64,000 bases of DNA from positions 4,034,001 to 4,098,000 of the forward strand of contig NZ_CP107841.1 in the NCBI RefSeq assembly GCF_036346855.1. Reading direction: 5' to 3'. The notes beneath the pieces were generated by a model, which worked only from the letters and a program-made list of their open reading frames with translations, did no database searches and was not told the DNA's origin. This document shows positions 35,802-39,668 of this stretch, in pieces; positions within the stretch are counted from its first letter, which is position 1; each line of letters starts with the position of its first letter. The DNA comes from Streptomyces europaeiscabiei. GTDB lineage: Bacteria > Actinomycetota > Actinomycetes > Streptomycetales > Streptomycetaceae. The position numbers were made by a program, and so were the translations under genes.

Positions 35802-36053
35802 ATGACGATGACCGACTCGAAGACCGACTCGAACCGCAGAGCGGTACGTACGGCGATCCAGGCCCTGTTGGCGGTGGCGACCGCCCTCCCGCTGCTCGCC
35901 GACACCCCGGGAGTGGCCGATCTCCCCGGCTACTCCACGCTGGTGGTCGCGGCCACCGCGCTGAGCCGGCTGATGTCCATGCCGTCGGTGGACCGCCTTC
36001 TCCCACCGTGGCTCAAGGCCGGATCCGGAGGGGCCGTCGATGGTGGGCAGTGA
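35802..36053 (+). CDS. Small phage-holin-like membrane protein
   Basis: 83 aa, GAGGA upstream of ATG. A charged start (MTMTDSKTDSNRRAVRT) precedes two hydrophobic helices (AIQALLAVATALPLLA and LPGYSTLVVAATALSRLMS), then an amphipathic end SVDRLLPPWLKAG. The pattern resembles holin-like proteins of actinophages. It overlaps the next gene by 14 nt. No other phage genes are nearby, so this is an orphan lysis-like cassette or a domesticated pair. Confidence 0.7.
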   Translation: MTMTDSKTDSNRRAVRTAIQALLAVATALPLLADTPGVADLPGYSTLVVAATALSRLMSMPSVDRLLPPWLKAGSGGAVDGGQ

Positions 36054-36300
36054 TGAACGGGCCTCCGTGGCACTGGAGTTGGAGCGCCTGCGCAGAGCCG
36101 TGGACGTCGGCTTCGCCACCACCCGCGGCGACCTCGCCCTCCTCCTCCAACGCGCCGACCAGACCGACAAGACCCTCTCCGAGCACGAGGACCGCCTGGA
36201 CGCCCTGGAACGCTCCCGCTGGCCCCTGCCGTCGCTGGCCGCGGTGACCTCGTGCGCGGCCCTGGCCGTGACGGTGTGGTCGACGACGAGCGGAAAGTAG
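36040..36300 (+). CDS. Coiled-coil protein with C-terminal membrane anchor, partner of the holin-like gene
   Basis: 86 aa from ATG with GGAGGGG 7 bases upstream, inside the end of the previous gene. Heptad-rich helix VALELERLRRAVDVGFATTRGDLALLLQRADQTDKTLSEHEDRLDALER (about 10-58), followed by a single membrane helix LPSLAAVTSCAALAVTVW. Such short coiled-coil plus TM proteins accompany holins in actinophage lysis modules; the biochemical role is unclear. Confidence 0.68.
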   Translation: MVGSDERASVALELERLRRAVDVGFATTRGDLALLLQRADQTDKTLSEHEDRLDALERSRWPLPSLAAVTSCAALAVTVWSTTSGK

Positions 36301-36360: not shown

Positions 36361-36888
36361 TCAGCCGTGTTGCCAGGGCCGGAGCGCGCAGACGTCCCAG
36401 GAGAAGCGGCGCAGACGCGCCTGCTCGACATGCGTGGCAGTGTCGCCGTAGGTGGTGTTGAGATGGCGCCCGAGAACGACGACGGCCACACTGCCCGCAC
36501 CGGAGGACTTCAGAGCTGCCGCTGCGGACTGAACGTGGTGGCCGGTGGCCCAGGTGTCGTCGATGAGCAGGACGTTCTCACCCCAGAGCGCCGACGCGAT
36601 GTAGCGCGACGGGGAAGCCGTGCGGCCGAGGGTGGCCGCGTCCGGCGTCGGGGTCAGCAGGTCTCGGTGGCGGTCGCGGGTGACGCCGACGACATCGGCC
36701 ACCATGGTGCGCAGGGGATGGCCTTCGCGCCCGCTGGTGCTGGGAACAGTGGTGACCACGCTGAAGCCGGGGACCGCGCAGTGGGCCGCGACGCAGACTT
36801 CGTGCAGAGCGAGGAAACGCCACAGGACGGCCGCAAGGCCCATCTGGAAGTACTGCCGCTGGGGCCCCGTGGTGTTCTTGTACGCCAC
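36361..36888 (-). pseudogene. Phosphoribosyltransferase domain, 3' part of a gene split by an in-frame TGA
   Basis: 175 aa if started at GTG 36888. It carries the PRPP-binding loop VLLIDDTWATGHHVQSAAAAL and the upstream FSVVTTVPS block of ComF-like type I phosphoribosyltransferases. The preceding zinc-ribbon ORF is in the same reading frame and ends in TGA 36892-36894, only one codon (GCT) before this GTG. No Shine-Dalgarno precedes the GTG, and ComF proteins are normally one chain of ribbon plus transferase. So this is either a gene broken by one nonsense change, a product of reinitiation, or a sequencing error. The catalytic part itself is intact. Confidence 0.75.
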
Positions 36889-36891
36889 AGC

Positions 36892-37110
36892 TCATTGGCG
36901 TACTGCTCGTTCTTGAGGGCCCCGGCTCACCGGGACCACGGCGTCGGCAACCCCCACACCGAGGATCTTTCTGACCTTGCCACACTGCCAGCAGGTGGGA
37001 TAGCCAGGTTTCGCAGGACCTCGGCATACCTGACACACACTCGTGTCCGGCAGTAAGGGGTGAACCAGGAAGTTGGCGTAGCGGGCGGACAGCCCTTCAA
37101 CGGTTGCCAC
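36892..37110 (-). pseudogene. ComF-like zinc-ribbon domain, 5' part of the split gene
   Basis: 72 aa from GTG. CQVCRGPAKPGYPTCWQC gives two Cys pairs typical of the N-terminal ribbon of ComF-like proteins. Starts 13 bases after the dprA-like stop, so it is co-transcribed with it. Leu19 is encoded by TTA (37054-37056), the rare codon read by the bldA tRNA in Streptomyces, implying developmental control. Ends with an in-frame TGA directly ahead of the transferase domain. Confidence 0.75.
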
Positions 37111-37123
37111 CCGGATCCGCCGC

Positions 37124-38008
37124 CTACGCCCAGGTCAGCTCGCCCGTGGCGGGGACGAGGGAGTCGAGGTGGTCGAAGACGTCGGCCGGGCCGTCGACGA
37201 CGGTCGTGTTCGGTCGACTCGCGTACTCCCTGGCCCATTCATGAGTCATGAGAGAGCGCATGAGGAAGACCCTGCGGCCGTGCTCCAGGGCGAGACGGGC
37301 CTGCATGCGAGCCCCGCTGCGGTACGCCGCCTCGACCACCACCGTGGCCAGGCTGTAGCCGCTCATCACAGCGTTGCGCATGGGGAACGACGCCTTCGAG
37401 GGCGGCGCGGAGGGCCAGAACTGGGAGAGCACCAGTCCTCGCTCGGCGATCTCCCGCTGCAGGCCGGCGTTCTGCGCCGGGTAGGCGTGGCGCAGGCCGG
37501 TGCCGACCACCGCGACCGTCCGGCCGCCGACCGCGAGTGCGGTCCCGTGTGCCGCCGTGTCGATCCCGGCGGCCAGGCCGCTGACCACCGTGACTCCGCG
37601 TTCGGCAAGTCCTCCTGAGATGGCGCGAGCGTGGGCGATTCCCTCGGGCGTGGGGGTGCGAGTGCCGACGACGGCGACCCGCAGGTCGTCCTCGACAGCG
37701 GTGCCGCGCAGGAACAGGAACGGCGGCCGCTGGTGGACCAGCCGCAGGTAGAGCGGATAGCCCTCGTCAAGGATCGTCACCAGGCGCATGCCCTCGCGCT
37801 CCCATGCGGCGATCTCCGTGGCGACGGCTTGCAGATCCACGGTGGGCTCGGTGTCGAACAGAGCACTCTGGCCCGAGGCGTCGAGCGCGCTCTCCAGGAC
37901 CTCGCGGGCACTACCGACGGTCTCGATCTGGTCGGTGAGCTCGGGCCAGGGGCGGTCGCCGCGCCGCAGCAGTGCGACGAGGGCGGCTCGCTCCAGGTCC
38001 TGGTCCAT
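37124..38008 (-). CDS. DprA/Smf-like (SLOG superfamily) protein
   Basis: 294 aa from ATG at 38008. An N-terminal helical region of about 60 residues precedes a Rossmann DprA core: VAVVGTRTPTPEGIAHARAI, LAERGVTVVSGLAAGIDTAAHGTAL, VAVVGTGLRHAYPAQNAGLQREIAERG, SQFWPSAPPSKASFPMRNAVMSGYS. It lacks the C-terminal winged helix of housekeeping DprA. In this genus true dprA lies elsewhere, and DprA/SLOG plus phosphoribosyltransferase pairs are predicted nucleotide-signalling or conflict modules, so a defence-like role is possible (inference). Confidence 0.85.
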   Translation of the reverse strand: MDQDLERAALVALLRRGDRPWPELTDQIETVGSAREVLESALDASGQSALFDTEPTVDLQAVATEIAAWEREGMRLVTILDEGYPLYLRLVHQRPPFLFLRGTAVEDDLRVAVVGTRTPTPEGIAHARAISGGLAERGVTVVSGLAAGIDTAAHGTALAVGGRTVAVVGTGLRHAYPAQNAGLQREIAERGLVLSQFWPSAPPSKASFPMRNAVMSGYSLATVVVEAAYRSGARMQARLALEHGRRVFLMRSLMTHEWAREYASRPNTTVVDGPADVFDHLDSLVPATGELTWA

Positions 38009-38109: not shown

Positions 38110-38601
38110 TCAGACGGCTACGCATCCGGACTCCACCCCTGCCCCACCCAGCTCGAACCACATCAGCTTCCCCCCACCCCTCCCGAGGCTCCCGCCCTCC
38201 ACCGGCCAGCACCCCCATCGGTCGGCGCACTGGCGGATGAGGAAGAGGCCCCGGCCGTGGTCGATGTCCGTCGAGGGTGAGCGTGGGACCGGCGCGGCGT
38301 CCGGGTCGTCGAACGGAGGTGGGACGTACGCGCTGTGGTCCCAGACGAAGACGCGCAGGCGCCCGCCGCCGAGGGCGACCAGGCGTACGGAGGAGGGACC
38401 CTTCGTGTGCTGGTACGCGTTGGTGACCAGCTCCGAGGTCAGCAGCTCGGTGACGTCGACGATCTCGTGAAGGCCGTGACTCGACAGGATCGCCCGCACG
38501 GTCACGCGGGCGATACGGGCGGCCCGGGGGTCGCAGGGCAGACGAAGGGCGTACTTCCAGCATTCGGGCGAACGGGAGTCGAGCGGGGATACGGTGACCA
38601 T
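38110..38601 (-). CDS. RsbW/SpoIIAB-like ATP-binding protein
   Basis: 163 aa from ATG at 38601, with GGAGG upstream; an in-frame TTG at 38640 is less likely. HATPase_c motifs: N-box ELLTSELVTNAYQHT and GRGLFLIRQCADRWG (G1). SSVRLVALGGGRLRVFVWDHS lies between. These single-domain kinases are abundant in Streptomyces and act as anti-sigma-type switch proteins. Its partner is unknown. Divergent from the XRE gene, a pairing often seen in this genus. Confidence 0.88.
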   Translation of the reverse strand: MVTVSPLDSRSPECWKYALRLPCDPRAARIARVTVRAILSSHGLHEIVDVTELLTSELVTNAYQHTKGPSSVRLVALGGGRLRVFVWDHSAYVPPPFDDPDAAPVPRSPSTDIDHGRGLFLIRQCADRWGCWPVEGGSLGRGGGKLMWFELGGAGVESGCVAV

Positions 38602-38816
38602 GAACGCCTCCGGGGAGGAAGGGGACTTGGGCTCGCTCAACGGCCGCGGCTCAGCGGTGGCAGTGCCTGGGGTGGTGCGCTTCCGGCTTACGGACGGGGC
38701 CAGTTGGGCGGTACGTGTCCACCGTAGGACAGATGGTTAGATGGATCTAACCAAAACAACTGAAAGCATCAGCGCTTCACTCTTGTGAGGGATGCACACC
38801 GCTGAGGGGAGACGTC

Positions 38817-39668
38817 TTGCCGCCCACGAACAGTCCGACGCTGCGCCAGCGGAGACTGGGCGCCGAGCTGCGCAAACTCCGCGAGCGCGCGGGACTCACC
38901 GCGACCGGTGCCGCCACACTCCTTGGGGTCAACCAGGCGCGCGTCAGCATGATGGAGACCGGCCGCACCCCCATCAGCGCCGACCGAGTGCGCTCCATGG
39001 CCCGGGCTTACGACTGCTTCGACGCGGCGTACGTCGACGCGCTGGCAGCGATGACCGGACGGCGGACGCGTGGCTGGTGGGAGGAGTACCGCGAACACCT
39101 CCCGGCCAACTTGGTCGACCTCGTGGAGCTTGAGCATCACGCGGCCTCACTGCGGGTGGCCCTGTTCGTCCATGTTCCCGCGCTGCTCCAGACCACCGAA
39201 CACGCCCGGGCGCTCTTCCGGACAGTGGTCCCACCACTGCGGCAGTACGAGATCGAGCACCGTCTGACTCACAGGATCAAGCGACAGGGAATCCTCTACC
39301 GGAGCAACCCCACCCCGTATCTGGTCACCATCCACGAGGCGGCTCTGAGGATGGGATTCGGCGGCCGAGCCGTGGCCGTCGAACAGCTCAGGCACCTTGT
39401 CGACATGAGCGAACTCCCCCATGTCACCATCCGGGTCATCCCCTTCGGCGATGCCAGCTTCCCGGGCGCGGGGCAAAGCATCACCTACGCCGCCGGACCC
39501 GTTCTCCAGGTTGACACTGTGCAGTTGGACAGCCACCACGGTTGCGAGTTTCTGGACAGTGAGGCCCAGCTCGCCAAGTACCGATCAGTGATCGACGGCC
39601 TGGAGGCTTGCGCCCTCGCGCCGGAGAAGTCGCGAGATCTGATCCACAGCATCGCGAACGACCTGTGA
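38817..39668 (+). CDS. XRE-type HTH regulator with DUF5753
   Basis: 283 aa from TTG, with GAGGGGAGA upstream. Cro/C1 HTH: LGAELRKLRERAGLTATGAATLLGVNQARVSMMETGRTPISADRVRSMARAYD (residues about 14-66). The C-terminal DUF5753 segment includes WWEEYREHLPANLVDLVELEHHAASLRVALFVHVPALLQT and a Val-Ile-Pro-Phe block VTIRVIPFGDASFPGAGQSITY. WhiJ-like family; members act with DUF397 partners, present here directly downstream, in developmental control. Confidence 0.92.
   Translation: MPPTNSPTLRQRRLGAELRKLRERAGLTATGAATLLGVNQARVSMMETGRTPISADRVRSMARAYDCFDAAYVDALAAMTGRRTRGWWEEYREHLPANLVDLVELEHHAASLRVALFVHVPALLQTTEHARALFRTVVPPLRQYEIEHRLTHRIKRQGILYRSNPTPYLVTIHEAALRMGFGGRAVAVEQLRHLVDMSELPHVTIRVIPFGDASFPGAGQSITYAAGPVLQVDTVQLDSHHGCEFLDSEAQLAKYRSVIDGLEACALAPEKSRDLIHSIANDL

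Follow-up and report, generated by a model that had tools for sequence, protein, structure and literature searches.

Gene layout and the nature of the TGA

The window analysed here, a 64,000-nucleotide stretch of the Streptomyces europaeiscabiei genome (assembly GCF_036346855.1; bases 4034001-4098000 of the 10.76-Mb first contig, NZ_CP107841.1, in a genome of 10.95 Mb), carries on its minus strand a locus composed of a DprA-like gene, 13 bases, a zinc-ribbon fragment, a TGA and a phosphoribosyltransferase fragment. A first-pass annotation, made from the letters alone, had described this arrangement, and reading the sequence bore out each of its parts, including the transferase being in the same frame as the ribbon open reading frame (ORF) and the single codon that separates the TGA (36892-36894) from a GTG at 36888. 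The features of the locus are as follows.

37124-38008, minus strand: DprA-like gene, candidate ShosA-like antitoxin; 294 amino acids from the ATG at 38008, intact
37111-37123, minus strand: gap of 13 bases between the two genes, read from the sequence
36361-37110, minus strand: footprint of the phosphoribosyltransferase gene, candidate ShosT-like toxin, frame-broken; 249 amino acids, one chain in relatives
36892-37110, minus strand: N-terminal fragment as read, 72 amino acids plus the TGA; opens with GTG at 37110 and contains CxxC...CxxC
36982-37035, minus strand: the four ribbon cysteines, inside the N-terminal fragment
36884-36925, minus strand: wrong-frame stretch, with one-base gaps of opposite sign at both bounds relative to Streptomyces adelaidensis; holds Q69 and L74
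36892-36894, minus strand: TGA, arising from out-of-frame reading of the 36884-36925 stretch
36361-36888, minus strand: C-terminal fragment as read, 175 amino acids; opens with GTG at 36888, in the same frame as the ribbon fragment
36541-36573, minus strand: motif for binding phosphoribosyl pyrophosphate (PRPP), inside the C-terminal fragment

The best other match to the fragment (L002), found among the 12 of 61 genomes that matched it at E<=1e-3 (the window's own genome counted), is a single protein of 249 amino acids, and its gene likewise follows the DprA-like gene at a distance of 13 bases. Residues 1-248 of this protein align with the window without gaps in frame -2, at 71% identity, but residues 64-76, which span the TGA, match the window in frame -3 and not in frame -2. 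Among 26 loci compared at the DNA level, several of which have short flanks, that of S. adelaidensis (L047) was the only one sharing the window's neighbourhood. Against this syntenic copy just two gaps occur across both genes; each is of one base, they are of opposite sign, and they lie near 36925 and 36883, about 42 bases apart, with the net frame kept. Relative to intact copies, a stretch of about 42 bases is therefore read out of frame, and it is for this reason that the TGA appears. The stretch holds Q69 and L74, residues that at least 90% of 44 relatives share. Taken together, these alignments indicate that the TGA results incidentally from two one-base frame changes of opposite sign, and not from the one-codon event implied by the earlier description of a gene split by a single in-frame stop. 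A nonsense mutation at one codon is ruled out, because the conserved residues at the TGA sit in another frame; for the same reason the alignment to relatives, which was to identify the residue that the TGA replaces, yields none. The proposal of a recent nonsense mutation that inactivates an effector thus loses its nonsense codon, with inactivation or a read error staying as options. As written, the toxin gene in the window is predicted not to work.

An uninterrupted second gene is the normal form. In a search of 392 Streptomyces genomes, with six candidates scored in each, transferase matches at E<=1e-10 were found in 21 genomes. All 13 other full-length places at 70% identity or more (one of which belongs to the query's own genome) were open, and the TGA was present only in the window's copy. 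A separate collection of 79 named loci came from the best 80 of 129 matches. The close named Streptomyces loci with both genes number 22 (L037-L056, L058 and L080), a set that overlaps with the 392 genomes (L002 and L037 are the same protein) and from which L057 and L059 (non-Streptomyces, 46-48%), L060 (a second copy with both genes degraded) and L088 (a contig-edge piece) had been dropped before counting. Of these 22 loci, 19 keep the second gene in one frame and three (L055, L058 and L080) have it broken; the DprA-like gene reads in a single frame in every one. The gap between the two genes is 12-15 bases throughout, except in L080, for which the estimate is distorted by the broken second gene. 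These counts agree with the first-pass expectation that ribbon and transferase are joined, and on comparative grounds the normal product is one protein of 249 amino acids, a single chain.

The same counts bear on functional recoding, in which programmed frameshifts, readthrough of the TGA or stop-start reinitiation would give the ribbon and the transferase as separate or joined products. Retention of the net frame and the presence of a GTG one codon past the TGA speak for such a scheme. However, genes decoded by readthrough have a stop conserved at one position, and the protein before and after it is conserved in a single frame; here the stop is absent from the 13 other full-length places, from every close relative examined and from a near-identical S. 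europaeiscabiei protein (P0001, described below). Moreover, readthrough would lose the conserved Q69 and L74, and producing the conserved protein would take two programmed shifts of opposite sign. We therefore regard recoding, and with it the readthrough or reinitiation suggested earlier, as hardly credible.

The gene pair and known DprA-phosphoribosyltransferase systems

The product of the first gene matches the Pfam family DNA_processg_A (2.1e-58), PADLOC ShosA (2e-61), PADLOC PsyrA (2.8e-28) and, in the PDB, ShosA (9vzo, 4.5e-24). No winged-helix model of Pfam matched it, in keeping with its earlier description as DprA-like but lacking a winged helix, and its NCBIfam dprA score of 184.0 bits falls slightly short of the 191.15 cut-off. 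The product of the second gene has the layout of the ComF family, namely zinc-ribbon cysteines and a type I phosphoribosyltransferase fold in one chain. Among the 44 relatives C26, C29 and C40 of the ribbon are invariant and C43 is at least 90% conserved; in the PRPP motif D184, D185, T186 and T188 are at least 90% conserved and G190 is invariant. The window's C-terminal fragment retains D184, D185, T186 and G190 of this motif and matches Pfam Pribosyltran at 6.3e-4, below the curated cut-off. The best PDB profile match of the transferase is ShosT (1.1e-6, the matched part being mostly the PRPP motif). Its matches to ShosT reach 4.6e-8 and extend to 42 of the 44 relatives at E<=1e-3, again mostly over the PRPP motif.

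With the ShosT and ShosA matches each non-specific, it is the pairing, and not either single protein, that carries the assignment to ShosTA. In the window the two genes are adjacent and on the same strand, as in ShosTA, and a DprA-like gene lies directly upstream of the transferase in 71 of the 79 relatives (from the best 80 of 129 matches), two of which (L060 and L061) carry just a piece of it; of the eight loci without the pair, one is at a contig edge and seven are at 31-39% identity. A working ShosTA system, though not kinship with ShosTA, requires both genes intact; in the window the second is frame-broken. We give a probability of roughly 0.8 to the two genes forming a ShosTA-type module whose toxin gene is frame-broken in the window. 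(Among the more distant loci, a transferase relative at 43% in genome G041 (L004) has no DprA-like gene in the 1.2 kb upstream, L029, L035 and L007 keep remnants of the transferase and lack a DprA-like gene, and L144 is a lone DprA-like piece.)

Several observations weigh against this assignment. The ShosA match is not specific, in that a 180-amino-acid piece of the genome's second DprA also reaches 6.8e-49 against ShosA. The PADLOC ShosT model gives weak E-values, 2.8e-6 with the S. adelaidensis copy and 3.3e-5 with the fragment in the window, and L093 and L104, which have no DprA neighbour in the stretch seen, score alike (5.8e-6 and 2e-6). Plain Foldseek ranks the PRPP synthetase 3mbi first, ComF second and ShosT (8zvb) 30th; it gives five matches at E<=0.001 and no clear nearest relative. 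In addition, the canonical DprA 3uqz outscores ShosA for the DprA-like protein in the PDB (1.3e-32 versus 4.5e-24).

Canonical DprA shares the DNA_processg_A core, and the two genes might be competence or housekeeping genes, a DprA and a ComF serving DNA uptake or recombination, and no defence pair. We consider this improbable. Another DprA, 47% identical to the DprA-like protein, is encoded elsewhere in the same genome. Within the genus the transferase is matched in only the 21 of 392 genomes noted above, the cassette occurs in differing neighbourhoods, on plasmids and in a phage, and the NCBIfam cut-offs are reached neither for dprA nor for comF (14.8 bits for the S. adelaidensis copy, against 233.55). 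Unlike ComF/ComFC, represented by Helicobacter pylori ComF (7p0h), the window-type transferase forms a mobile pair with a second DprA; unlike canonical DprA, the window protein has no winged helix that Pfam models find.

Among known systems, ShosTA resembles the pair in combining a DprA-like protein with a transferase bearing a PRPP motif, and anti-phage and toxin-antitoxin roles are reported for its known members. It differs in its toxin: the solved ShosT chain has 432 residues (ShosTA structures 8zvb-d, 9w2p-q, 9vzo and 8zva), whereas the window-type toxin has 249 and a ComF-like four-cysteine ribbon; PADLOC also has a ShosT model of 237 positions. PsyrTA/RqlHI, a RecQ-like helicase with a transferase domain and a DprA-like partner, is similar in that the DprA-like partner restrains a toxic transferase domain, but the window-type chain of 249 amino acids has no helicase domain and the PsyrT model spans 689 positions. 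In the passages of the cited papers that concern these systems, a DprA-phosphoribosyltransferase pair is described as protecting against T7 and lambda (Rousset et al. 2022, PMC9122126), shosTA and rqlHI are cited as toxin-antitoxin systems in which DprA homologues act as the antitoxins (PMC9122126), and RqlI is said to keep the toxic transferase domain in RqlH in check (PMC4670107). A passage of a 2025 review (PMC12593503) describes ShosT as having both phosphoribosyltransferase and pyrophosphatase activity and disturbing purine metabolism, ShosA as a DNA-binding protein and T7 Gp0.7 as a trigger. ShosTA is also named among the defence systems of actinobacterial prophages (in the relevant part of PMC10023795) and of a Pseudomonas Pf phage (likewise PMC11878078). 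The first-pass annotation had placed the pair among conflict or defence systems, which fits the ShosTA architecture; its further suggestion of an undescribed defence module does not hold, since that combination had already been shown to protect (in the part of PMC9122126 cited above) and structures of ShosT and ShosA have been solved. A literature search turned up nothing on a toxin pair of the DprA-ComF type in Streptomyces, although this was judged by titles and the starts of abstracts and proves little.

We infer that the module is an actinobacterial form of ShosTA with a ComF-type toxin, its action being predicted from ShosTA. The second gene would encode the toxin, a ComF-fold phosphoribosyltransferase of 249 residues with a four-cysteine ribbon, and the first the antitoxin and probable sensor, a DprA-like SLOG protein lacking the winged helix. 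By analogy, the DprA-like protein would hold the transferase harmless, and disturbance of DNA replication or host functions by a phage would release it. The freed transferase would then act on PRPP and the nucleotide pool, damage DNA metabolism and halt the infected cell. What had looked like possible recoding in an undescribed module becomes a copy of a known anti-phage architecture in which the frame break is private. As a by-product, the actinobacterial set of 71 pairs, together with a phage-borne copy, is suited to asking whether DprA paralogues hold ComF-type transferase toxins.

Sequence error or fresh mutation

Outside the break, the ratio of nonsynonymous to synonymous substitution rates (dN/dS) between the window and S. 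adelaidensis is 0.151, computed on the two fragments separately with residues 63-77 left out. Against 14 other copies the window gives 0.160-0.281 and S. adelaidensis 0.149-0.247. These low values rule out a long-standing pseudogene; with the rest of the gene under purifying selection, the break, if real, is therefore very young. Further, a database protein of S. europaeiscabiei (P0001, 198 amino acids) agrees with the window's C-terminal fragment at every one of 173 residues and runs through the spot without a stop. Two points count in the other direction: the dN/dS of the window exceeds that of the S. adelaidensis copy, if slightly, in 10 of the 14 comparisons, which are non-independent, and P0001 starts inside the gene, such that it shows the frame across the break and leaves the first 51 residues uncovered.

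The quality of the assembly was gauged by comparing 63 S. adelaidensis ORFs (22,911 amino acids, from the syntenic 108 kb) with the window genome. Eleven were flagged as interrupted, one of them being the transferase gene itself. Read singly, five of the others prove to be upstream extensions that align poorly (left identity 0.25-0.38), one has a stop 5 residues from the C-terminus, one is an N-terminal extension over a neighbouring gene and one extends an AhpC gene far upstream. The remaining two have good identity on both sides of the stop and resemble antisense shadow ORFs by codon-position G+C, a judgement on which their exclusion rests. Among the 63, no other broken ORF was judged to be a genuine gene, and a generally error-ridden assembly thus finds no support in this comparison, with which a local error is still compatible. 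(Note that the reverse comparison, of 67 window-genome ORFs with S. adelaidensis, flagged 8; it bears on the other assembly and was not used.)

As far as seen, then, the frame changes appear to be private to this assembly and very recent, and would reflect a local mistake in the sequence or its assembly or, alternatively, a single fresh patch of mutation. We give about even odds to a local error, in which a patch of G+C-rich DNA was miscalled and the gene is intact in the organism. The two changes lie 42 bases apart and cancel within otherwise constrained sequence, and the same-species protein P0001 is uninterrupted. Against an error stand the 10 other flagged ORFs, which did not hold up as broken genes and so indicate that errors are not general, and the single-strand DNA fold of the stretch, which is ordinary (z -0.73) and gives no signal of a local hairpin as the cause.

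A true recent inactivation is a serious possibility, though one to which we assign somewhat less than an even chance. If both frame changes are real, the locus would keep an intact antitoxin and a disarmed toxin, a cost-free way of disarming the pair. The same asymmetry recurs, through separate frame breaks, in L055, L058 and L080, where the second gene is broken and the DprA-like gene open; L131 (genome G123) has an intact DprA-like gene and no transferase within 1.5 kb downstream; and the reverse pattern occurs in none of the 22 close loci. All four breaks, the window's included, fall in the second gene (one-sided p ~0.044, if breaks fall by gene length). However, the numbers are small, the breaks at the other loci may be errors too, and two cancelling changes so near each other would be odd for simple decay. 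Moreover, among distant relatives, in L030 and L069 the DprA-like gene is split over two frames beside an open transferase, against L105 and L141, in which the second gene is broken. A tendency for the toxin to break first therefore holds in the close group and is not clean overall.

At L105 the second gene has one stop, and at L141 it lies in two frames. The DprA-like gene of L131 is 89% identical and is a candidate orphan antitoxin.

Mobility and surroundings of the cassette

The pair behaves as a bare two-gene cassette, whose neighbourhoods vary among the loci compared and which is also found on plasmids. Gordonia phage Vasanti (L116) carries a complete DprA-like and phosphoribosyltransferase pair as its genes 29 and 30, between integrase and minor tail genes, so that, like ShosTA, the pair is carried by phages and mobile elements. 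It is conceivable, if doubtful, that actinobacteria have their own branch of ShosTA, with a small ComF-type toxin in a bare cassette moved by phages and plasmids, and that Streptomyces repeatedly break the toxin and keep the DprA-like antitoxin, perhaps for a use that it has by itself in recombination or in guarding against incoming copies.

In the window, two small phage-type genes face the end of the cassette, and the stretch holding the two genes that adjoin it is collinear with S. adelaidensis.

35802-36053, plus strand: small phage-type gene, phrog_4316 (9.9e-11)
36040-36300, plus strand: small phage-type gene, phrog_5225 (9.3e-25)
38110-38640: HATPase_c_2 protein
38817-39668: HTH-DUF5753 regulator

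No sigma-70 promoters or terminators were found at the locus, by a search that is uninformative for Streptomyces. Between the matching flanks, about 0.9 kb of the window genome (34888-35818) stands opposite 14.7 kb of phage-like sequence in S. adelaidensis, which includes endolysin, tape measure, tail terminator and repressor genes. One scan of viral contigs gave one distant locus (28%), and in Streptomyces venezuelae a DprA and phosphoribosyltransferase pair (L147) lies on a 158-kb linear plasmid, near a CoiA-family gene.
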